A stretch of 64,000 nucleotides of DNA. Origin: Streptomyces sp. NRRL WC-3742. GTDB lineage: Bacteria; Actinomycetota; Actinomycetes; Streptomycetales; Streptomycetaceae. The notes below the pieces were generated by a model. That model did no database searches. It was given only the letters and a program-made list of their open reading frames with translations, and had not been told where the DNA came from. The DNA is taken from assembly GCF_000720635.1 (NCBI RefSeq), contig NZ_JOCF01000002.1, forward strand, positions 124,001 to 188,000, in the 5' to 3' direction. Below are positions 2,443-56,235 of this stretch, in pieces. Each line of letters starts with the position of its first letter. The stretch's first letter is position 1. Position numbers and translations under genes: made by a program.

Positions 2443-4080
2443 GTGAACGACGGACCGCTCATCGTCCAGAGCGACAAAACTCTTCTCCTGGAGATCGACC
2501 ACCCCAAGGCTTCCGACTGCCGCCGCGCCATCGCGCCGTTCGCCGAGCTGGAGCGCGCCCCCGAGCACGTCCACACGTACCGGGTGACACCGCTCGGCCT
2601 GTGGAACGCGCGGGCGGCCGGCCACGACGCCGAGCAGGTGGTGGACGCCCTGGTGAAGTACTCCCGCTACCCGGTCCCGCACGCGCTGCTGGTGGACGTG
2701 GCGGACACCATGGGCCGCTACGGGCGGCTCCAGCTCCTCAAGCACCCCACCCACGGACTCGTGCTCACCACCACCGACCGGCCGGTGCTGGAGGAGGTGC
2801 TGCGCTCCAAGAAGATCGTGCCGCTGGTCGGCGCCCGGGTCGATCCGGACACCGTGGTCGTACACCCCTCCGAGCGCGGCCAGATCAAGCAGGTGCTGCT
2901 CAAACTCGGCTGGCCCGCCGAGGACTTCGCCGGGTACGTCGACGGCGAGGCGCACCCCATCGACCTGGAGGAGGACGGCTGGCAGCTGCGCCCGTACCAG
3001 GCGCAGGCCGTCGAGGGCTTCTGGCACGGCGGCTCGGGCGTCGTCGTGCTGCCCTGCGGCGCCGGCAAGACGCTGGTCGGCGCGGCCGCGATGGCGCACG
3101 CCAGGTCGACCACGCTGATCCTGGTCACCAACACCGTCTCGGCCCGCCAGTGGAAGCACGAACTGGTCAAGCGCACCTCGCTCACCGAGGACGAGATCGG
3201 CGAGTACAGCGGCACGAAGAAGGAGATCCGCCCGGTCACCATCGCCACCTACCAGGTGATGACCACCAAGCGGAAGGGCGTCTACGCGCACCTGGAGCTG
3301 TTCGACGCCCGCAACTGGGGCCTGGTCGTCTACGACGAGGTGCACCTGCTGCCCGCGCCCGTCTTCAAGTTCACCGCCGACCTCCAGGCCCGCCGCCGCC
3401 TCGGCCTGACCGCCACCCTGGTGCGCGAGGACGGCCGCGAGGGCGACGTGTTCAGCCTCATCGGCCCCAAGCGCTTCGACGCGCCGTGGAAGGAGATCGA
3501 GGCCCAGGGCTACATCGCGCCCGCCGACTGCTGCGAGGTGCGCGTCACCCTGACCGACTCCGAGCGGCTGGCCTACGCCACCGCCGAGCCGGAGGAGCGC
3601 TACCGCTTCTGCGCCACCACGGCGACCAAGCGGCGGGTGGTGGAGGCGCTGGTCAAGAAGCACGAGAAGGACCAGACGCTGGTCATCGGCCAGTACATCG
3701 ACCAGCTGGACGAGCTCGGCGAGGTCCTCGACGCACCCGTGATCAAGGGCGAGACCAGCAACGCCCAGCGCGAGAAGCTCTTCGACGCCTTCCGCAACAA
3801 GGAGATCGGCGTCCTGGTCGTCTCCAAGGTCGCCAACTTCTCCATCGACCTGCCCGAGGCGACGGTCGCCATCCAGGTCTCCGGGACCTTCGGCTCCCGC
3901 CAGGAGGAGGCCCAGCGCCTCGGCCGCGTCCTGCGCCCCAAGGCGGACGGCCACTCCGCGCACTTCTACTCCGTCGTCGCCCGGGACACCGTGGACCAGG
4001 ACTTCGCCGCCCACCGGCAGCGCTTCCTCGCCGAGCAGGGCTACGCGTACCGGATCATCGACGCGGACGACGTGCTGTAA
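2443..4080 (+). CDS. DNA repair helicase, XPB/ERCC3-type superfamily 2
   Basis: A 545-residue SF2 3'-5' helicase of the bacterial XPB family (known in mycobacteria and streptomycetes). Residues 1-175 form the XPB-specific N-terminal/damage-recognition region. A Q-like motif (LRPYQAQAV) lies near residue 183, Walker A CGAGKT at 205-210 and the DEVH box at 298-301. The C-terminal helicase domain ends with the arginine-finger motif QRLGRVLRP. It starts with GTG. It lies next to a helicase-associated protein, a pairing typical of actinomycetes. The reaction is ATP-driven duplex unwinding; the physiological repair pathway in bacteria is unsettled. Confidence 0.93.
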   Translation: MNDGPLIVQSDKTLLLEIDHPKASDCRRAIAPFAELERAPEHVHTYRVTPLGLWNARAAGHDAEQVVDALVKYSRYPVPHALLVDVADTMGRYGRLQLLKHPTHGLVLTTTDRPVLEEVLRSKKIVPLVGARVDPDTVVVHPSERGQIKQVLLKLGWPAEDFAGYVDGEAHPIDLEEDGWQLRPYQAQAVEGFWHGGSGVVVLPCGAGKTLVGAAAMAHARSTTLILVTNTVSARQWKHELVKRTSLTEDEIGEYSGTKKEIRPVTIATYQVMTTKRKGVYAHLELFDARNWGLVVYDEVHLLPAPVFKFTADLQARRRLGLTATLVREDGREGDVFSLIGPKRFDAPWKEIEAQGYIAPADCCEVRVTLTDSERLAYATAEPEERYRFCATTATKRRVVEALVKKHEKDQTLVIGQYIDQLDELGEVLDAPVIKGETSNAQREKLFDAFRNKEIGVLVVSKVANFSIDLPEATVAIQVSGTFGSRQEEAQRLGRVLRPKADGHSAHFYSVVARDTVDQDFAAHRQRFLAEQGYAYRIIDADDVL

Positions 4081-4095
4081 GAGCTGTCAACCGGT

Positions 4096-4254
4096 TCAGT
4101 ACCGGACACCGTCGCGCCCGAGGAAGATCACGCGCGCGGCGGTGTCCAGGGCGATCCCGACGTTGCGGAAGGCGATGCTCAGCGGGCTGCGGTGACGGGC
4201 GGCCGCGACGGTCGCACCGGCCGGGACAGTGGGGTTCTCGTCTCGTGTGCTCAT
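4096..4254 (-). CDS. Small hypothetical protein (52 aa)
   Basis: A short frame with start MSTRDENPTV and a C-terminus rich in Val, Ile, Arg and Gly. It has no signal peptide. It lies convergent to the XPB helicase (15 bases between stops) and divergent from the HelR-type gene. I do not recognise a family. Coding quality is plausible: third-position GC is high and the start precedes a palindrome-rich shared promoter region. Confidence 0.5.
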   Translation of the reverse strand: MSTRDENPTVPAGATVAAARHRSPLSIAFRNVGIALDTAARVIFLGRDGVRY

Positions 4255-4331
4255 GTCTTCAACGGTAGGTACCCGACCGGCCCACGGCATCACTCCGAAG
4301 GCCGTACCCACCGCGCCGCCCGTCCTCCTCC

Positions 4332-4347
4332 GGGTGTACGCACACCC
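4332..4347. promoter_or_regulatory. Perfect inverted repeat GGGTGT-ACGC-ACACCC in the helR upstream region
   Basis: Two 6-base arms with a 4-base spacer form a 16-bp palindrome about 200 bases before the HelR-type gene. It is a candidate operator for the divergent genes. I cannot name the regulator. Confidence 0.4.
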
Positions 4348-4358
4348 CCGAGACCTGC

Positions 4359-4372
4359 GGGGCTGGTACCCC
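4359..4372. promoter_or_regulatory. GGGGCTGGTACCCC imperfect palindrome upstream of the HelR-type gene
   Basis: A GGGG...CCCC dyad about 185 bases before the start. Rifamycin-responsive helR genes are known to carry an upstream inverted-repeat element (RAE). I cannot confirm that this sequence matches that element's consensus, so the link is only a suggestion. Confidence 0.25.
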
Positions 4373-4544
4373 GAGACGGACGGGTCTAAGATCGTCCGTC
4401 TGCCCCCTCCCGCACCGTGGTACCTGCTGAAGTCACGCAGGCAGCCGGGGGAGGCGTCGACCGCACGGCAACCGGTCGGCTGTACCCACCGTGAGCTCCA
4501 TCGATCCGCTGCGCCCGCCACCGGGGCAGCCGGGAAGGTTCGCT

Positions 4545-6620
4545 GTGCCCGCCACCCCCACCACCGACCCCCTCCAGCGCGAACGCGACCACCTGGCCGC
4601 CTCCAGGGCCGCGCTGCGAGCGATGCGCGAGGACGTCGAGTCGCTCGACATCCGCGACGTGACCGGCACCTGGGTCACCGCCGTCATCCTCCAGAACCAG
4701 ATCGAGGCCAGGATCGCCGCCCTGGCCGACCTCTCCGACACCCCGCTGTTCTTCGGCCGCCTCGACTACCTCCACGCGATCAGCGAGGAGCTCAGCGAGG
4801 GCGGCGGGGGAGAGAACTTCTACATCGGCCGCCGCCACGTCCACGACGCGGACGGCGACCCGATGGTCATCGACTGGCGCGCGCCCGTCTCCCAGCCCTT
4901 CTACCGGGCCAGCCGCACCGATCCGATGGACGTCGACCGCCGCCGCCGCTTCGGCTACACCGGCGGCGAACTCACCGCCTACGAGGACGAGCACCTCTCC
5001 GACCCGGCAGCCGAGACATTCACCGGCTCCGCCGGGGGGTCCACCGCCTCCGCCCTCCTCGCCGCCGAGATCGAGAAGCCCCGCGTCGGCCCGATGCGCG
5101 ACATCGTCGCCACCATCCAGCCCGAGCAGGACGAGATCGTCCGCTCCGACATCTCCGGCACCATCTGCGTCCAGGGGGCGCCCGGCACCGGCAAGACCGC
5201 CGTGGGCCTGCACCGCGTCGCGTACCTGCTGTACGCGCACCGCGAGCGCCTCGCCCGCACCGGCACCCTGGTGATCGGCCCCAACAACGCCTTCCTCTCC
5301 TACATCGAGCAGGTGCTCCCCGCCCTCGGCGAGCTGGAGGTCGGCCAGGCGACGGTTCAGCAGCTCGTCGGCCACGTCGAGGTGCGCGGCGAGGACACCC
5401 CCGAGGCGGCCCGGCTCAAGGGCGACGCCCGGATGGCCGAGGTGCTGCGCCGGGCCGTACGGTCGGGCATCGCCCTGCCCACCGAGCCCTGCGTGGTCGT
5501 CCGCGGCTCCCGCCGCTACCGCGTCCCCGTCCACGAACTCGTCCAGATCATCGAGGAGTTGAAAGCCCGCGACGTCCGCTACGGCGCCGCCGGGGACGCC
5601 CTGCCGCAGCGCATCGCGCACACCGTGCTGCTCAAGATGGAGCAGTCCGGCGAGGCCCCCGACGACCGGGTGCAGGACGCGGTGGCCCGCAACCCCGCCG
5701 TCAAGGCCGTGGCCAAGGAGTGCTGGCCGCCCGTCGACCCGGCCAAGCTGGTGCTGCGGCTGCTCTCCGAGCCCGGGTTCCTCGCCGCCTGCGCCGAGGG
5801 CGTGCTGACCGCCGAGGAGCAGGCGGCCGTCCTGTGGCCCAAGCCCGGCCGCTCGGTGAAGACCGCCCGCTGGACGCAGGCCGACGCCGTCCTCGTCGAC
5901 GAGGTGACGGACCTGGTGCAGCGCACCCCCTCGCTCGGCCACGTGGTGCTCGACGAGGCCCAGGACCTCTCCCCGATGCAGTACCGCGCCGTCGGCCGCC
6001 GCTGCACCACCGGCTCGGCGACCGTCCTCGGCGACCTCGCCCAGGGCACCACCCCCTGGGCGGCGGCCAGTTGGCCCGAGGCGCTGCACCACCTCGGCAA
6101 GCCGGAGGCGCACATCGAGGAGCTGACCAAGGGCTTCCGCGTGCCGGAGGAGGTCATCGTCTACGCCTCCCGGCTGCTGCCCTCGATCGCCCCGGGCCTG
6201 GCCCCGGCCACCTCGGTGCGCGAGACGCCCGGCTCGCTGGCGATCCGCGAGGTCGCGGCCGAGGAGATGACCGAGGCCGTCCTCGACGCGTGCCGCCAGG
6301 CACTGACCCACGAGGGCTCGACCGGCCTGATCGCCGCCGACGCCCGTATCCCGCTGTTCGCCGAGGCCCTGGAGGCGGCGGGCCTGCCGTTCCTCTCCCC
6401 CGGCACCGAGACCAGCGCGGGCGCCCGGCTCACCCTCGTCCCGGCCTCGCTGGCCAAGGGTCTGGAGTACGACTACGTGGTGCTCGACGAGCCGTCCGCG
6501 GTGGTCGCCGGGGAGCCGGACGAGCGCACGGGCCTGCGCCGGCTGTACGTGTCGCTGACCCGCGCCGTCTCCGGCCTGACGGTGCTGCACGCCGAGCCGC
6601 TGCCCGAGCAGCTGCTGTAA
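4545..6620 (+). CDS. helR: HelD-family RNA polymerase recycling motor ATPase (HelR-like)
   Basis: An SF1 UvrD/Rep-like ATPase of 691 residues. An N-terminal helical arm (residues ~5-80) is followed by the HelD hallmark DWRAP (about 110-114), Walker A GAPGTGKTA (about 211-219), Walker B VLDEAQDLSP, and C-terminal motifs VPASLAKGLEYD and LYVSLTRA. Known actinobacterial members displace stalled or rifamycin-bound RNA polymerase from DNA; streptomycete HelR gives rifamycin tolerance. I chose the GTG at 4545, which has GGGAAGG six bases upstream. An upstream in-frame GTG at 4491 would add 18 Pro-rich residues but has no good ribosome site. Whether it is the HelR (rifamycin) or housekeeping HelD paralogue is uncertain. 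Confidence 0.85.
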   Translation: MPATPTTDPLQRERDHLAASRAALRAMREDVESLDIRDVTGTWVTAVILQNQIEARIAALADLSDTPLFFGRLDYLHAISEELSEGGGGENFYIGRRHVHDADGDPMVIDWRAPVSQPFYRASRTDPMDVDRRRRFGYTGGELTAYEDEHLSDPAAETFTGSAGGSTASALLAAEIEKPRVGPMRDIVATIQPEQDEIVRSDISGTICVQGAPGTGKTAVGLHRVAYLLYAHRERLARTGTLVIGPNNAFLSYIEQVLPALGELEVGQATVQQLVGHVEVRGEDTPEAARLKGDARMAEVLRRAVRSGIALPTEPCVVVRGSRRYRVPVHELVQIIEELKARDVRYGAAGDALPQRIAHTVLLKMEQSGEAPDDRVQDAVARNPAVKAVAKECWPPVDPAKLVLRLLSEPGFLAACAEGVLTAEEQAAVLWPKPGRSVKTARWTQADAVLVDEVTDLVQRTPSLGHVVLDEAQDLSPMQYRAVGRRCTTGSATVLGDLAQGTTPWAAASWPEALHHLGKPEAHIEELTKGFRVPEEVIVYASRLLPSIAPGLAPATSVRETPGSLAIREVAAEEMTEAVLDACRQALTHEGSTGLIAADARIPLFAEALEAAGLPFLSPGTETSAGARLTLVPASLAKGLEYDYVVLDEPSAVVAGEPDERTGLRRLYVSLTRAVSGLTVLHAEPLPEQLL

Positions 6621-12614: not shown

Positions 12615-12893
12615 TCAGCAGCCCCCGGCGACCGCCGGAATGATCGAGATGCCGGCGCCGTCCTTGATCTCGGTCGCCAGGCCCTCGGCGAAACGCACGT
12701 CGTCGTCGTTCACGTACACGTTCACGAAACGGCGCAGCTTGCCGGTGTCGTCCAGGATGCGGGCCGCGATGCCCGCGTGGTTCTTCTCCAGGTCGGCGAT
12801 GACCTCGCCCAGGGTGGCACCCTCGGCGCTCACCTCGGCGGCGCCGCCGGTGTAGGTGCGCAGGATGGTGGGGATGCGGACGTTCGCGCTCAT
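12615..12893 (-). CDS. metO: Sulfur-carrier protein MetO (CysO/ThiS/MoaD-like)
   Basis: A 92-residue ubiquitin-like sulfur carrier very close to mycobacterial CysO (RIPTILRTYTGG, LRRFVNVYVNDDDVRF, SIIPAVAGG). The C-terminal Gly-Gly would be adenylated and thiocarboxylated to donate sulfur. It lies directly downstream of the threonine-synthase-like gene, 19 bases away, in one SAM-riboswitch-controlled operon. This is the arrangement reported for streptomycete metM-metO, in which MetO thiocarboxylate supplies sulfur for homocysteine. Unusually, a Cys follows the Gly-Gly, so processing before activation seems necessary. Confidence 0.85.
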   Translation of the reverse strand: MSANVRIPTILRTYTGGAAEVSAEGATLGEVIADLEKNHAGIAARILDDTGKLRRFVNVYVNDDDVRFAEGLATEIKDGAGISIIPAVAGGC

Positions 12894-12912
12894 GGCTCTC
12901 CTATCGGGTGGT

Positions 12913-14220
12913 TCAGGCGGACGCGAGGCCGGCGTCGCGGAAGGACGCCAGGGTGGGGCGGATGACGGCGGTCATCCCGGCGTCGGAGACGGCGTCCAGC
13001 GTCTTGAGGCCGTCGCCGGTGTTGATCGCGACGGTCTCCTTGGCCGGGTCCAGCTGCCCGCTCTCGACCAACTTCTTCAGCACGCCGACGGTCACGCCGC
13101 CCGCGGTCTCGGCGAAGATCCCCTCCGTACGGGCCAGCAGCCGGATCGCCTCCACGACCTCCGCGTCCGTCACGTCCTCGACGGCGCCGCCGGTGCGGCG
13201 GGCGATGTCCAGCACGTACGGGCCGTCCGCCGGGTTGCCGATGGCCAGCGACTTGGCGATGGTGTCCGGCTTGACCGGCCGGATCACGTCACGGCCGTCC
13301 TTGAACGCCGTGGACACCGGCGAGCAGCCCTCGGCCTGCGCACCGAAGATCCGGTACGGCCGGTCCTCCACGAGGCCCAGCTTGATCAGCTCCTGCAGCC
13401 CCTTGTCGATCTTCGTCAGCTGCGAGCCCGAGGCCACCGGGATCACGATCTGCTCCGGCAGCCGCCAGCCGAGCTGCTCGCAGATCTCGTACGCCAGCGT
13501 CTTGGACCCCTCGCCGTAGTACGGCCGCAGGTTGACGTTCACGAAGCCCCAGCCCTCGCCGGCCGGGTCCCCGATGAGCTCCGAGCAGAAACGGTTCACG
13601 TCGTCGTAGTTGCCCTCGATACCGACGAGCTCGCCGCCGTACACCCCGGCCATCACGACCTTGCCCTGCTCCAGGTCGTGCGGGATGAACACGCAGGACC
13701 GGAAGCCCGCCCGGGCCGCCGCCGCGCCCACCGCACCGGCCAGGTTGCCGGTCGAGGAGCAGGACAGCGTGGTGTACCCGAAGGCCCGCGCCGCCTCGAT
13801 CGCGCAGGCGACCACGCGGTCCTTGAACGAGTGCGTCGGGTTGCCGGAGTCGTCCTTGACGTGCAGCTGCGCGGTGAACCCGAGCTCGCGGCCCAGGTTG
13901 TCCGCCTTCACCAGCGGGGTCCACCCCGGGTTCAGGTTCGGCTTGGAGGCGACGTCGGCCGGAACCGGCAGCAGCGGCGCGTAGCGCCAGATGGACGTCG
14001 GCCCGGCCTCGATCCGCTTGCGCAGCTCCTCGGCGCCCTCGCTGCCGAACTCGTACGCGATCTCCAGCGGCCCGAAGCACTCCAGGCAGGCGAAGCTGGG
14101 GCCGAGCGGGAACCGGGTTCCGCACTCCCGACAGGACAGGGCGGCGGCGGGGCCGAGGTCCACGGTCGGGGACACATCCAGCCGAAGGCTGGGGGAGGGT
14201 GCGTCGATGTCGATGGCCAT
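12913..14220 (-). CDS. metM: Threonine-synthase-like PLP enzyme, probable MetM (O-phosphohomoserine to homocysteine)
   Basis: A 435-residue fold-type II PLP enzyme of the threonine synthase family. The PLP lysine is in THSFKDRVV; the glycine-rich phosphate loop is SSTGNLAGAVGAA, and SGSQL and NTGDGLKT are conserved. A short N-terminal Cys pair region (CRECGTRF, CLECFG) resembles a zinc ribbon. Annotation pipelines would call it ThrC. The SAM-I riboswitch and the co-transcribed sulfur carrier point instead to MetM, which in Streptomyces uses O-phospho-L-homoserine and MetO thiocarboxylate to make homocysteine. Residual threonine synthase activity cannot be excluded. Confidence 0.85.
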   Translation of the reverse strand: MAIDIDAPSPSLRLDVSPTVDLGPAAALSCRECGTRFPLGPSFACLECFGPLEIAYEFGSEGAEELRKRIEAGPTSIWRYAPLLPVPADVASKPNLNPGWTPLVKADNLGRELGFTAQLHVKDDSGNPTHSFKDRVVACAIEAARAFGYTTLSCSSTGNLAGAVGAAAARAGFRSCVFIPHDLEQGKVVMAGVYGGELVGIEGNYDDVNRFCSELIGDPAGEGWGFVNVNLRPYYGEGSKTLAYEICEQLGWRLPEQIVIPVASGSQLTKIDKGLQELIKLGLVEDRPYRIFGAQAEGCSPVSTAFKDGRDVIRPVKPDTIAKSLAIGNPADGPYVLDIARRTGGAVEDVTDAEVVEAIRLLARTEGIFAETAGGVTVGVLKKLVESGQLDPAKETVAINTGDGLKTLDAVSDAGMTAVIRPTLASFRDAGLASA

Positions 14221-14238
14221 GATGGCGGAGCCTCTCTC

Positions 14239-14370
14239 CTCATCTTCCCCGCGGCACGGTCGCGCCACAGGCCGGAATTGGCACCTGTCCCGCCGGGGCC
14301 TGTCGACGACAGCCGAGCGAGAAGGTTGCCGGGACGTCAACGGGCCGTTCCCTCAGTCCCTCTGGATGAG
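14239..14370 (-). ncRNA. SAM-I (S-box) riboswitch controlling metM-metO
   Basis: On the minus strand the conserved S-box blocks are present in order: CTCATCCAGAGGGACTGAGGGA, then ACGGCCC, GTCCCGGCAACC, GGTGCCAATTCC, and closing GGAAGATGAG pairing with the opening CTCATC. It ends 18 bases before the metM ATG, so occlusion of translation or premature termination by bound S-adenosylmethionine would both be possible. It indicates that the downstream operon serves methionine/SAM synthesis. Confidence 0.93.
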
Positions 14371-14531
14371 CTTGTGAAATTGTGGTGGTACTCGGGCGGT
14401 TACCCCGGTGTGCCAAGGTCCGACCGCCGTACGAAGACTGTATCCGAAGGCGTCAAACCCGAATGGGACTGTCCGCCACGCGAGATGACACGTCTCGACC
14501 TAGCCCGCCCGACCCCGCCGAGGAGAATCCC

Positions 14532-15536
14532 GTGCCCGCCGAACCGACCCCCGAGCTCCTCCCGCAGGCGGCGTCCTGGCTACGCCGGCGCTCCTGGGCC
14601 GCGTCGGACCGGCCGGCCCAGGACCTCCTGCGCGCCAAGGAGCGCACGGGCCACACCGTCAGCGTCGTCCTGCCCGCCCTCGACGAGGAGGCGACCGTCG
14701 GGGACATCGTCCGCACCATCCGCCGCGAACTGATGGACCGCCTCCCCCTCGTCGACGAACTCGTCGTCGTCGACTCGGGCTCCACCGACGCCACCGCCGC
14801 CGTCGCCGCCGAGGCCGGCGCCCGCGTCGAGCACCGCGACGCCATCCTCCCGCGCCTGCCCGCCGTCCCCGGCAAGGGCGAGGTCCTCTGGCGCTCCCTG
14901 CTCGTCACCCGCGGCGACCTCGTCTGCTTCATCGACGCCGACCTGCGCGAGTTCGACCCCGCCTTCGTCTCCGGCATCCTCGGCCCGCTGCTCACCGAGC
15001 CCGACATCCAGCTGGTCAAGGCCATGTACGACCGCCCCCTCGAGACGGAATCAGGTGCGATCGTCCCCGCCGGCGGCGGCCGCGTCACCGAACTCGTCGC
15101 CCGCCCGCTCCTCAACCTCCACTGGCCGGAACTCGCCGGTTTCGTCCAGCCCCTCGGCGGCGAGTACGCGGCCCGCCGCTCCCTGCTCGAACGCCTGCCC
15201 TTCCCCACCGGCTACGGCGTCGAACTCGGCCTCCTCGTCGACGCCCTCGAAACCGTCGGCCTCGACGCCCTCGCCCAGGTCGACGTCGGCGTCCGCCACC
15301 ACCGCCACCAGGACGGCCAGGCCCTCGGCCGGATGGCCGCCACCATCTACCGCACCGCCCTCGAACGCCTCGACCGCACCCACCGCCTCAAGGCCGGCGC
15401 CGACCTCGTCCGCCCCCTCCTCACCCAGTTCACCCGCTCCCCCGAAACGCGCGAATTCACCGCCCACACCCTCCCCGTCACCGCCCTCGAACGCCCCCCG
15501 ATGCACACGGTCCCCGAATACGCGACCCGCCACTGA
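14532..15536 (+). CDS. gpgS: Glucosyl-3-phosphoglycerate synthase (GT81)
   Basis: A 334-residue GT-A retaining glycosyltransferase. It has nucleotide-sugar motifs SVVLPALDEEATVG and VDSGSTDAT, the metal-binding DxD-type FIDADLR, and the acceptor region GGEYAARRS. Known GpgS transfers glucose from NDP-glucose to 3-phosphoglycerate, the first step towards glucosylglycerate and methylglucose polysaccharides. The GTG start at 14532 has GAGGAG six bases upstream; an upstream in-frame extension is unlikely. It lies 38 bases before otsA on the same strand, linking two stress-sugar pathways. Confidence 0.9.
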   Translation: MPAEPTPELLPQAASWLRRRSWAASDRPAQDLLRAKERTGHTVSVVLPALDEEATVGDIVRTIRRELMDRLPLVDELVVVDSGSTDATAAVAAEAGARVEHRDAILPRLPAVPGKGEVLWRSLLVTRGDLVCFIDADLREFDPAFVSGILGPLLTEPDIQLVKAMYDRPLETESGAIVPAGGGRVTELVARPLLNLHWPELAGFVQPLGGEYAARRSLLERLPFPTGYGVELGLLVDALETVGLDALAQVDVGVRHHRHQDGQALGRMAATIYRTALERLDRTHRLKAGADLVRPLLTQFTRSPETREFTAHTLPVTALERPPMHTVPEYATRH

Positions 15537-15574
15537 GGGGTTTGCGGCGCCCACCCCCCGGCAAGATGCCAACC

Positions 15575-17050
15575 ATGGGCGATCTCACGACCGAACGTTC
15601 GAGCGCGACCGGCACCGCCCCCGTCCTGGTGGCCTCCAACCGGGGCCCGGTGTCCTTCGGCACCGCGGACGACGGCACCCTGACCCTCCGCAGAGGCGGC
15701 GGCGGCCTGGTCTCCGGCCTCTCCGCCATCGACGACCCCAACGCCGTCTGGGTCTGCGCGGCCCTGAACGACGCCGACCGCCGAGCCGCCCGCGAAGCCC
15801 CCCACGGCCGCCTCGACCTCGCCGGCCACGACGTCGGCGGCCAGGCCGTCCGGATGCTCGACCTCGACCCCGAGACCTTCGCCCACGCCTACAACGGCGT
15901 CGCCAACTCCACCCTCTGGTTCGTCCACCACCTGCTGTACGCGACGCCCACCGCCCCCGCCTTCGACGCCGACTTCCGCACCCAGTGGGCCGACTACACC
16001 GCCTACAACACGGCCTTCGCCGAAGCCCTCGCCGCCGAAGCAGCCCCCTCGGCCGCCGTCCTCGTCCAGGACTACCACCTCTCCCTCACCCCGGCCCTCC
16101 TGCGCGCCGCCCGCCCCGACCTGCGCATCGGGCACTTCTCCCACACCCCCTGGGCCCCGCCCGAGTACTACCGGCTGCTCCCCGACGACGTCGCCGCGGC
16201 CGTCCTCACCGGCATCCTCGGCGCCGACCGCGCCGGCTTCCTCACCGAACGCTGGGCCCGCGCCTTCGCCGCCTGCTGCGAATCCGTCCTCGGCGCCACC
16301 GTCGACCACGAGGCCCTCACCGTCACCCACGACGGCCGCACCACCCACCTCGGCGTCCACGCCCTCGGTGCCGACGCCGACTTCCTCCGCGAACGCGCCC
16401 ACCGCCCCGACGTCGACGAACGCCTCGCGGCCCTGCGCGAGGCCGTCGGCGACCGCCGCACCGTCGTCCGCGTCGACCGCACCGAGCTGAGCAAGAACAT
16501 CGTCCGCGGCCTCCTGGCCTACCGGCACCTGCTCCGCACCCGCCCCGAATGGCAGGACCGGGTGGTCCACCTCGCCTTCGCGTACCCCTCCCGCACCGAC
16601 CTCGCCGAGTACCGCGACTACACCGCCGCCGTCCAGGCCCTGGCCGAGCAGATCAACGAGGAGTTCGCCACCCCCACCTGGCAGCCCCTGATCCTCCACG
16701 TCAACGACGACTTCCCCCGCAGCCTCGCCGCCTACCGCCTCGCCGACGTCGCCCTCGTGAACCCCATCCGCGACGGCATGAACCTCGTCGCCAAGGAGGT
16801 CCCCGTCGTCTCCGACCACGGCTGCGCCCTCGTCCTGTCCCGCGAGGCCGGCGCCCACGCCGAACTCAAGGACGACGCCCTCGTCGTCAACCCCTACGAC
16901 GTGATCGCCACCGCCGACGCCCTCCACGCCGCCCTCACCATGCCCCTCGAGGAACGCGCCGCCCGCAGCAAGCGCCTGGCCGACGCCGCCACCGCCCTCC
17001 CCCCGCAGCAGTGGTTCCTCGACCAGCTCAACGCCCTCCGAACTCCCTGA
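15575..17050 (+). CDS. otsA: Trehalose-6-phosphate synthase (GT20)
   Basis: A 491-residue GT20 enzyme. It has SNRGPVSF with the Gly-rich loop GGGGLVSGL (glucose-6-phosphate and UDP binding), VQDYHLSLTP, the Arg/Lys pair in VDRTELSKNI, and NPIRDGMNLVAKE near the C-terminus. It makes trehalose-6-phosphate from NDP-glucose and glucose-6-phosphate. The ATG at 15575 begins the conserved region at the usual distance. Its 3' end overlaps the convergent otsB by 23 bases. Confidence 0.93.
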   Translation: MGDLTTERSSATGTAPVLVASNRGPVSFGTADDGTLTLRRGGGGLVSGLSAIDDPNAVWVCAALNDADRRAAREAPHGRLDLAGHDVGGQAVRMLDLDPETFAHAYNGVANSTLWFVHHLLYATPTAPAFDADFRTQWADYTAYNTAFAEALAAEAAPSAAVLVQDYHLSLTPALLRAARPDLRIGHFSHTPWAPPEYYRLLPDDVAAAVLTGILGADRAGFLTERWARAFAACCESVLGATVDHEALTVTHDGRTTHLGVHALGADADFLRERAHRPDVDERLAALREAVGDRRTVVRVDRTELSKNIVRGLLAYRHLLRTRPEWQDRVVHLAFAYPSRTDLAEYRDYTAAVQALAEQINEEFATPTWQPLILHVNDDFPRSLAAYRLADVALVNPIRDGMNLVAKEVPVVSDHGCALVLSREAGAHAELKDDALVVNPYDVIATADALHAALTMPLEERAARSKRLADAATALPPQQWFLDQLNALRTP

Positions 17051-55255: not shown

Positions 55256-55552
55256 TCAGCCTCCCGCGAACGGCGGAAGGACCTCGACCGTCCCGCCCTC
55301 GGTCAGGGCGACCAGATTGTGGTCACGGCCGCCCACCTGCGCGCCGTCGACCAGGTACGAGCAGTGCCCGAGCAGGCGCAGCAACGCCGGCCGGTCCGCG
55401 TGCCGCTCCCGGACGCCCGCCAGCGCCTGCGCCAGCGTCGCCGCCTCGTACGGCTCCTCGGCGAGCCCGGCCCCGGACTTCGCCGCCGCCCAGTAGCGGA
55501 TCGTCCCGCGCACCCGGGCGCCGCCGTCGGCGGGCTCGGTGGTCGCGCCCAT
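55256..55552 (-). CDS. MoaD/ThiS-family sulfur-carrier protein
   Basis: A 98-residue ubiquitin-like protein ending PPFAGG, with the terminal Gly-Gly exposed and ready for adenylation. Conserved blocks are [17 protein letters not shown] and [17 protein letters not shown]. It is probably a molybdopterin synthase small subunit (MoaD); ThiS is less likely. It contrasts with the GGC-ending MetO in this window. Confidence 0.85.
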
Positions 55553-56235
55553 CGGGCCACCCCTTCTCGTCGTCCTCGCCCGGCACGGGAGCCCCGGTCC
55601 GGATCGCCACCGCGGCGGCCCCCGAAACCACCCGAACGATGGACCCGAGCTGCGCCGACGGTGCGCGTCCCATGATGGCGTGTCGGCCACCACGAGCGGC
55701 AATCGCCCTGGCCGGACGGGCCCCGGCCGGGGCCCGAAGCCGTGACCAGGCTCACCCGCCCCGTGCCCGGATTGGGCGAAGCGCCGCATTCGACACCTCC
55801 CGGGCCGGGCGAGGGTCGGCTATCCTCGACCACCAAGAGGGACCCGGGCAGAGTCGCCCCCGGGTCCTTTCGTGCTTACAGGACGCCAGTACGGACGTTC
55901 TTGCGATTCGTCGGCCCACCCCCGGCGGACGCAGGGACCACCCGCCGCTCGCGGCACGACGACGTGCCCCGTCCGGCCGGGTGTCGCCACCGGGCGCCGG
56001 GCCGCCGCCCGGTACCGGACCAGACCGGAGGGTTCGCGGGAATGAGCGGGGCAGAAACGGTGTGCCAGGGGTCGCGGGCCCCGGGGCGCGTGCGCCGTCG
56101 CGCCCGGCACGCCGCCCACGCCCTCCTTTCGCATCGGGCTCCCGACGTCCTTCCCCCCACCCCAGCACGTGCGCCTTCCGGCTGTGGCGGCAGCCGGACA
56201 GCGACCGCGACGACCCGGAAAGGGGACCACCGGGT
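55553..56235. other. 683-base gene-free region upstream of glnR
   Basis: No convincing reading frame. It includes a hairpin with a T-run (next entry). The rest should hold promoters for glnR and the leftward MoaD operon. Confidence 0.6.
55821..55870 (+). ncRNA. Candidate short transcript or attenuator upstream of glnR
   Basis: TATCCT resembles a -10 box. About fourteen bases later GGACCCGGG pairs with CCCGGGTCC (55840-55848 with 55859-55867), followed by TTT. This is either an independent small RNA of about 40-50 nt or a terminator/attenuator in a long glnR leader. The -35 box is poor. Confidence 0.35.

Follow-up and report, generated by a model that had tools for sequence, protein, structure and literature searches.

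A SAM riboswitch, a threonine-synthase-like gene and a sulfur carrier gene form a predicted methionine operon, metM–metO, in a genome of the Streptomycetaceae

The window, a stretch of 64,000 nucleotides of a Streptomycetaceae genome, contains a locus that very probably represents a SAM-regulated methionine operon, metM–metO, in which MetM is a predicted homocysteine synthase. Sequence and ORF reading indicate the order S-box SAM riboswitch, metM, metO on the minus strand. The sequence-only reading of this DNA had described an S-box, a ThrC-family gene and a CysO-like carrier gene lying 19 bases apart; its coordinates and the gap were right, and the strand, which it did not give, is minus. The features of the locus are the following:

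14237..14372, minus strand: S-box (SAM-I) riboswitch aptamer in the metM leader (RF00162, 73.4 bits, E 2.7e-15)
14221..14242, minus strand: last part of the P1 3' strand of the aptamer, continuing into the ribosome-binding region (GAGGAGAGAGG...), plus the spacer that precedes the ATG; predicted expression platform (sequence, fold model and the same layout in 11 Streptomycetaceae loci)
12913..14220, minus strand: metM (ATG at 14220), a threonine-synthase-family PLP enzyme of 435 aa, predicted homocysteine synthase using O-phosphohomoserine (family matches, clade and altered positions; relatives annotated 'threonine synthase')
14077..14133, minus strand: N-terminal four-cysteine ribbon of metM (C30, C33, C45, C48; each Cys kept in 59–60 of 61 MetM rows)
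13822..13824, minus strand: codon of metM Lys133 in SFKDR, predicted PLP lysine (kept at ≥95% in both MetM and ThrC rows)
13324..13326, minus strand: codon of metM Cys299, a MetM-specific cysteine (60 of 61 MetM rows)
12894..12912, minus strand: gap between metM and metO, 19 bases (sequence)
12615..12893, minus strand: metO, a ubiquitin-fold sulfur carrier of 92 aa (ThiS match; 60% identical to CysO of the same genome)
12618..12626, minus strand: Gly-Gly-Cys tail of MetO (GGG GGC TGC, followed by TGA; sequence)

The metM product matched the NCBIfam family TIGR00260 (thrC) with 275 bits against a cut-off of 167.1, as well as PALP (226 bits), and MetO matched the Pfam family ThiS (66 bits), its NCBIfam SAMP1 score of 59.7 bits being just under the cut-off of 60. 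The best solved-structure match of MetO by sequence was 3dwg_C ('9.5 kDa culture filtrate antigen cfp10A', E 3.8e-31), which we take to be CysO of M. tuberculosis. The top-ranked named homologues of MetM and MetO, among the best 120 listed for each, belong mostly to Kitasatospora, and the nearest named locus is that of Kitasatospora sp. SUK 42, where the enzyme is 96% identical to the window MetM; judged by its sequences, the source genome is Kitasatospora-like. A divergent pair of genes, read by eye as encoding a glycosyltransferase and a trehalose-phosphate synthase, occupies positions 14382–17050 of the plus strand, and its start region abuts the S-box. Elsewhere in the window, an ORF at 55256–55789 (minus strand) that ends in PPFAGG showed a weak ThiS-family match (24.5 bits) and may encode a further sulfur carrier.

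MetM and MetO were reportedly described in Streptomyces albulus by Hasebe et al. 2024, where metO is said to adjoin metM, the MetO thiocarboxylate is said to serve as sulfur donor and the pathway is reportedly widespread in Streptomyces. Since the system was published in 2024 for S. albulus, riboswitch included, the window locus can be considered an orthologue of a known system. According to the portion of PMC12172450 available to us, the Streptomyces MetM acts as a homocysteine synthase and has homologues in cyanobacteria, a SAM riboswitch lies upstream of S. albulus metM, and MetM prevents methionine auxotrophy in this species. As far as that portion goes, the two systems belong to the same bacterial family and have in common a homocysteine synthase of ThrC type, the metO gene for a carrier and a SAM riboswitch upstream. 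This comparison of described features brought out no essential difference; the C-terminus of the window MetO is Gly-Gly-Cys.

Two proteins encoded in the genome matched TIGR00260 above the cut-off, and the better one (321 bits) is the product of a canonical thrC (locus L022) found in the order argS–lysA–hom–thrC–thrB–rho, the gene names being given from reading the proteins. The second, canonical thrC that the sequence-only reading had proposed to look for is therefore present, and the possibility that the window gene is the only thrC of the genome is ruled out by the two TIGR00260 matches; judging from gene order and family matches, the thrC of hom–thrC–thrB most likely encodes the true threonine synthase. 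The window MetM is 36% identical to this ThrC over 347 positions; ThrC is shorter and aligns from MetM residue 70 on, and the region of the four-cysteine ribbon has no counterpart in it.

In a sample of 296 actinomycetotal genomes of at least 90% completeness, a MetM-like match was found in 111, including all 12 Streptomycetaceae. At least two thrC-family genes (E ≤ 1e-45) are present in 108 of these 111 genomes, as counted by eye, the exceptions being G034, G056 and G241; the MetM match of G034 is weak (35% identity) and that of G056 is partial. The locus of G241 (L040; genome 99% complete) contains an S-box, MetM and MetO, and no second thrC-family gene was found in this genome at E ≤ 1e-45.

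Sixty MetM-like loci, hand-chosen across the 110 loci other than that of the window, were fetched, along with 20 loci of canonical thrC taken from the listed matches. The alignment comprised 61 MetM and 21 ThrC rows; for the tree, one MetM row of less than 300 aa was dropped, leaving 60 MetM rows and the same 21 ThrC rows. The maximum-likelihood tree places MetM and ThrC on opposite sides of one branch with a support of 100/100, and at 25 positions each group is fixed (≥90%) for a residue of its own (61 MetM rows versus 21 ThrC rows). Residues S168, N170 and R173 of ThrC, which belong to the segment NS.N..R, and T101 are present in 21 of 21 ThrC rows, and MetM has N230, R232, Y235 and L160 in place of them; the segment aligns with NSVNPHR of T. 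thermophilus ThrC (1uim) and presumably binds the substrate phosphate, so the active site of MetM would be remodelled. The position of Cys299 is occupied by cysteine in 60 of 61 MetM rows, the remaining row having a gap, and by alanine (17 of 21) or serine (4 of 21) in ThrC rows. Compared with canonical ThrC, represented by the solved structures 2d1f and 1uim, MetM belongs to the same family, shares the SFKDR motif, the lysine of which we assume to be the PLP lysine of the family, and has the same predicted substrate, O-phosphohomoserine; it differs in the low identity and the 25 fixed differences given above, in the extra N-terminal ribbon, in the S-box and in having a sulfur carrier as partner. 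Named proteins among the best 120 listed relatives of MetM are all called 'threonine synthase', one of them 'putative', and, taken together with the TIGR00260 match, this bears out the prediction that standard annotation would mislabel the gene.

The earlier argument that a SAM switch ill fits a true threonine synthase was upheld by a control comparison across the 296 genomes: among the matches listed, with related genomes counted separately, an S-box lies upstream of at least 66 of 111 MetM places and at least 23 of 112 metX places, versus 0 of 143 other thrC-family places. An S-box was counted as upstream when located on the same strand within 600 nt; the S-box places were the 150 listed from the 296-genome search under strict filters, of more that exist; the MetM places were all 111 matches to the window enzyme at E ≤ 1e-60; the metX places do not include a fragment (G266) and weaker second matches; and the other thrC-family places were the 150 listed, of more, minus seven that are MetM itself. 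The suggestion that S-boxes also stand at ordinary thrC genes found no support, none of the 143 places listed having one within 600 nt upstream. Thirty genomes contain both metM and metX, and among the matches listed the S-box stands at metM in 23 of them and at metX in none; in G196, which has both genes, a further S-box lies on the upstream side of metX at a distance of some 1.46 kb, outside the 600-nt limit. Sixty-one of the 150 listed S-box places are at neither MetM nor metX, 12 of these being in MetM-positive genomes. An Rfam search at gathering scores placed the S-box before MetM in 49 of the 60 fetched loci, always on the MetM strand (11 loci had no detected S-box), and a motif search found the S-box core in 79 of 80 named Streptomycetaceae MetM loci. 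The metX loci of family f18, e.g., G026:C2:59254 and G011:C1:383844, often have an S-box before metX in genomes without metM, so that one kind of switch controls the committed step in either of two routes.

The absence of an S-box upstream of the 143 other thrC-family places listed, the presence of two or more thrC-family genes in nearly all MetM-like genomes, the separate clade, the altered positions and the adjoining sulfur carrier all speak against an explanation in which the window gene encodes another threonine synthase, or an enzyme that deaminates threonine as a protein of Microcystis does, and SAM control balances threonine and methionine at the O-phosphohomoserine branch. This explanation, which we regard as very unlikely, can draw on the name 'threonine synthase' given by NCBIfam and by the named relatives, on genome G241, with its MetM, MetO and S-box and no second thrC-family gene at the threshold used, and on the Microcystis MetM-like protein. 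The latter, as described in the portion of PMC12172450 at hand, is 51.6% identical to S. albulus MetM, has a metO-like neighbour and no SAM riboswitch, possesses threonine deaminase activity and weak threonine synthase activity, and did not raise methionine. The identification of the window 'thrC' as metM, put forward in the sequence-only reading, is supported by the second thrC, the separate clade, the altered positions and the S-box control.

The RF00162 match of the window covers model positions 1–108 and, at 73.4 bits, is well above the gathering score (44.4), which rules out a chance or weak match, and it is the only S-box found by the Rfam search in the 8.74-Mb genome. Its 3' end is separated from the metM ATG by 16 bases. 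The closing helix P1 ends in GAUGAG and runs directly into the ribosome-binding region, a layout common to 11 Streptomycetaceae leaders. When the P1 5' strand is held unpaired, the minimum-energy folds of 9 of the 11 leaders pair GAGG with CCUC of the spacer and leave the purine-rich SD-like stretch looped; according to the fold models, read by eye, the leaders of the window and L036 form a GGAG/CUCC pairing instead and that of L034 forms neither, and with P1 closed part of the SD-like stretch pairs downstream in most of the 11 leaders. The modelling suggests an expression platform of mutually exclusive hairpins, a proposal that stays a model given that the predicted energies of the closed-P1 and open-P1 states differ by no more than 4.4 kcal/mol. 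When SAM is scarce, the leader would keep the ribosome-binding region accessible, allowing synthesis of MetM and MetO. A simple scan revealed no terminator in the window leader; it returned two terminator-like sites, both elsewhere, versus a mean of 1.0 in shuffled sequences. In the leaders of L047, L070, L074 and L075, which represent other lineages, a hairpin followed by a T run is visible by eye, and transcriptional control is therefore likely there.

MetO adjoins MetM downstream on the same strand in 50 of the 60 fetched actinomycetotal loci and in all 80 named Streptomycetaceae loci, a set that contains no S. albulus record. Together with the S-box counts above, these numbers show that the arrangement in the window is not accidental. 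The 10 loci without adjacent MetO include seven that still have an S-box, and L084, where the contig ends just after MetM. In locus L086 (G166), the S-box-preceded MetM at 3842–5563 (MetM-strand coordinates) has no adjacent MetO and is followed by a gene that looks sulfite-reductase-like by eye; perhaps this is a sulfide-fed variant. These loci, the seven with an S-box and L086 in particular, could be taken to mean that MetM makes homocysteine from free sulfide or another carrier and that MetO serves something else. Such an explanation is extremely unlikely, considering the constant neighbourhood of the two genes in the named loci and in most of the diverse ones, the truncation of L084 by the contig end and the role as sulfur donor that the MetO thiocarboxylate reportedly has in S. 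albulus.

For the assumed steps of the route to homocysteine via MetM and MetO, genes were found for thrB, a MoeZR-like protein, mec and cysO; the MoeZR-like protein (392 aa) is a fused adenylyltransferase-rhodanese with a ThiF domain match of 279 bits, and the JAMM protease and CysO are encoded in mec–cysO–cysM. ThrB, the gene for which is present, would provide O-phosphohomoserine. The tail cysteine of MetO would first be cut off, most simply by the JAMM protease Mec, and this is the least certain step; the exposed Gly-Gly would then acquire its thiocarboxylate through adenylation and sulfuration, for which MoeZR is the most likely enzyme, as can be supposed from the example of CysO. As the published orthologue and the chemistry of the family suggest, MetM would eliminate phosphate and the MetO thiocarboxylate would attack the gamma carbon, yielding homocysteine, whereas ThrC adds water at the beta carbon. 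Carrier-protein sulfur also enters homocysteine in the thiocarboxylate-dependent HcyS/HcyD route of Wolinella, where a protease trims the carrier tail as well; the enzyme of that route is an O-acetylhomoserine sulfhydrylase of PLP fold type I, unlike the ThrC-type MetM. The cysteine pathway of M. tuberculosis (CysM/CysO/Mec/MoeZR) resembles the window system in that a carrier with a C-terminal thiocarboxylate feeds a PLP enzyme using a phosphorylated amino acid (PMC3227635 and PMC11361707, as far as the available portions describe it), and in that pathway CysO obtains its sulfur through MoeZR, while hydrolysis of the CysO-cysteine adduct is the task of Mec (PMC3227635, same restriction); the window system differs in its predicted product, homocysteine, in a partner of the ThrC family rather than the CysM family and in the SAM riboswitch.

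The window MetO has one encoded residue, Cys, past the Gly-Gly expected to carry the thiocarboxylate and, because of this Gly-Gly-Cys tail, the cysteine would have to be removed before sulfur loading. The C-termini of the best 120 listed MetO homologues (of 8000 scored) are GGC in 100, AGG in 18, GGA in one and otherwise in one; at the 80 named loci, MetO ends in GG in 68, GGC in 11 and GGA in one. When the 50 fetched MetO proteins and that of the window were read, 15 of the 51 proved to be extended past Gly-Gly, and eight of the 15 extensions start with Cys. The tail of CysO in the Mec-CysO-CysM operon of the genome (L023:4839-6965) is also extended (GGAR). It might tentatively be proposed, although we find it rather doubtful, that the MetO GGC tail is chemically identical to the CysO-cysteine adduct hydrolysed by Mec, so that freshly made MetO resembles a CysO that has completed a round of cysteine synthesis, and that new MetO must pass Mec before sulfuration, in which case the methionine supply would be coupled to the protease of the cysteine pathway. 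The bare Gly-Gly of 18 of the best 120 listed MetO homologues argues against this proposal. A JAMM match at E ≤ 1e-5 is present in 59 of 61 MetM genomes, and the two without a detected one, G010 and G276, both have extended MetO tails, which counts against trimming by Mec. Stop-codon drift from TGA to TGC, which alone could favour Cys at MetO tails, is a further point against the proposal. The encoded Gly-Gly-Cys tail is perhaps unreported; no paper on it or on the S-box comparison was found in the literature searched, a search that lay apart from the primary MetM/MetO paper.

The search for the classical genes metA, metX and metB that the sequence-only reading had proposed agreed with its interpretation in part: the homology search of the 296-genome sample did not reveal metX in the genome of the window (of the 11 further Streptomycetaceae in the sample, 4 have metX), and metA-like, metB-like and metC-like genes are present, which rules out a genome free of classical methionine genes. 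The metA-like gene (L087:7577-8482, G000:C4:197576-198481; homology match of 339.5 bits at C4:197615-198478) is below three NCBIfam MetA cut-offs (343 vs 460.5, 316 vs 495 and 164 vs 358 bits), is unique among 61 genomes of the genus and is absent from the other 11 Streptomycetaceae in the phylum sample. Its neighbours, named from reading the proteins, are an ATP-grasp gene and then an MFS gene, and the group lies where a contig ends; by its sequence setting the metA-like gene looks like a gene of specialised metabolism, possibly part of a specialised-metabolite cluster. A cystathionine gamma-synthase/lyase scored 677 bits against a cut-off of 513, and a cystathionine beta-synthase (690 bits) is encoded about 3.6 kb away, an arrangement that fits reverse transsulfuration. 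A cystathionine beta-lyase-like protein encoded elsewhere in the genome scored 359.4 against a cut-off of 365.9. Across the sample, with related genomes counted separately, metX or metA was found in 36 of 111 MetM-positive versus 123 of 185 MetM-negative genomes (Fisher p 1.3e-8).

On paper, then, the gene content would allow an alternative methionine route in the strain, and the metA-like gene, the gamma-synthase above its cut-off and the beta-lyase-like protein might indicate that methionine is made mainly via the classical acyl-homoserine route, with metM–metO as a backup. This scheme is compatible with the activity proposed for MetM; we consider it unlikely, given the uniqueness, low scores and specialised-metabolism-like setting of the metA-like gene and the proximity of the gamma-synthase to the cystathionine beta-synthase. 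Given the three genes, methionine auxotrophy on metM deletion is likely but not assured in this strain, and the exclusivity of the MetM/MetO route is a weaker conclusion than the identity of the operon.

The pathway itself has already been published, and for specialists the surprise is modest. Because public annotation, in the case of the named proteins among the best 120 listed relatives, says threonine synthase, metabolic models based on such genomes contain thrC twice and seem to lack a step of methionine synthesis. The S-box control suggests an annotation rule for Actinomycetota, according to which a thrC-like gene right behind an S-box would be metM.
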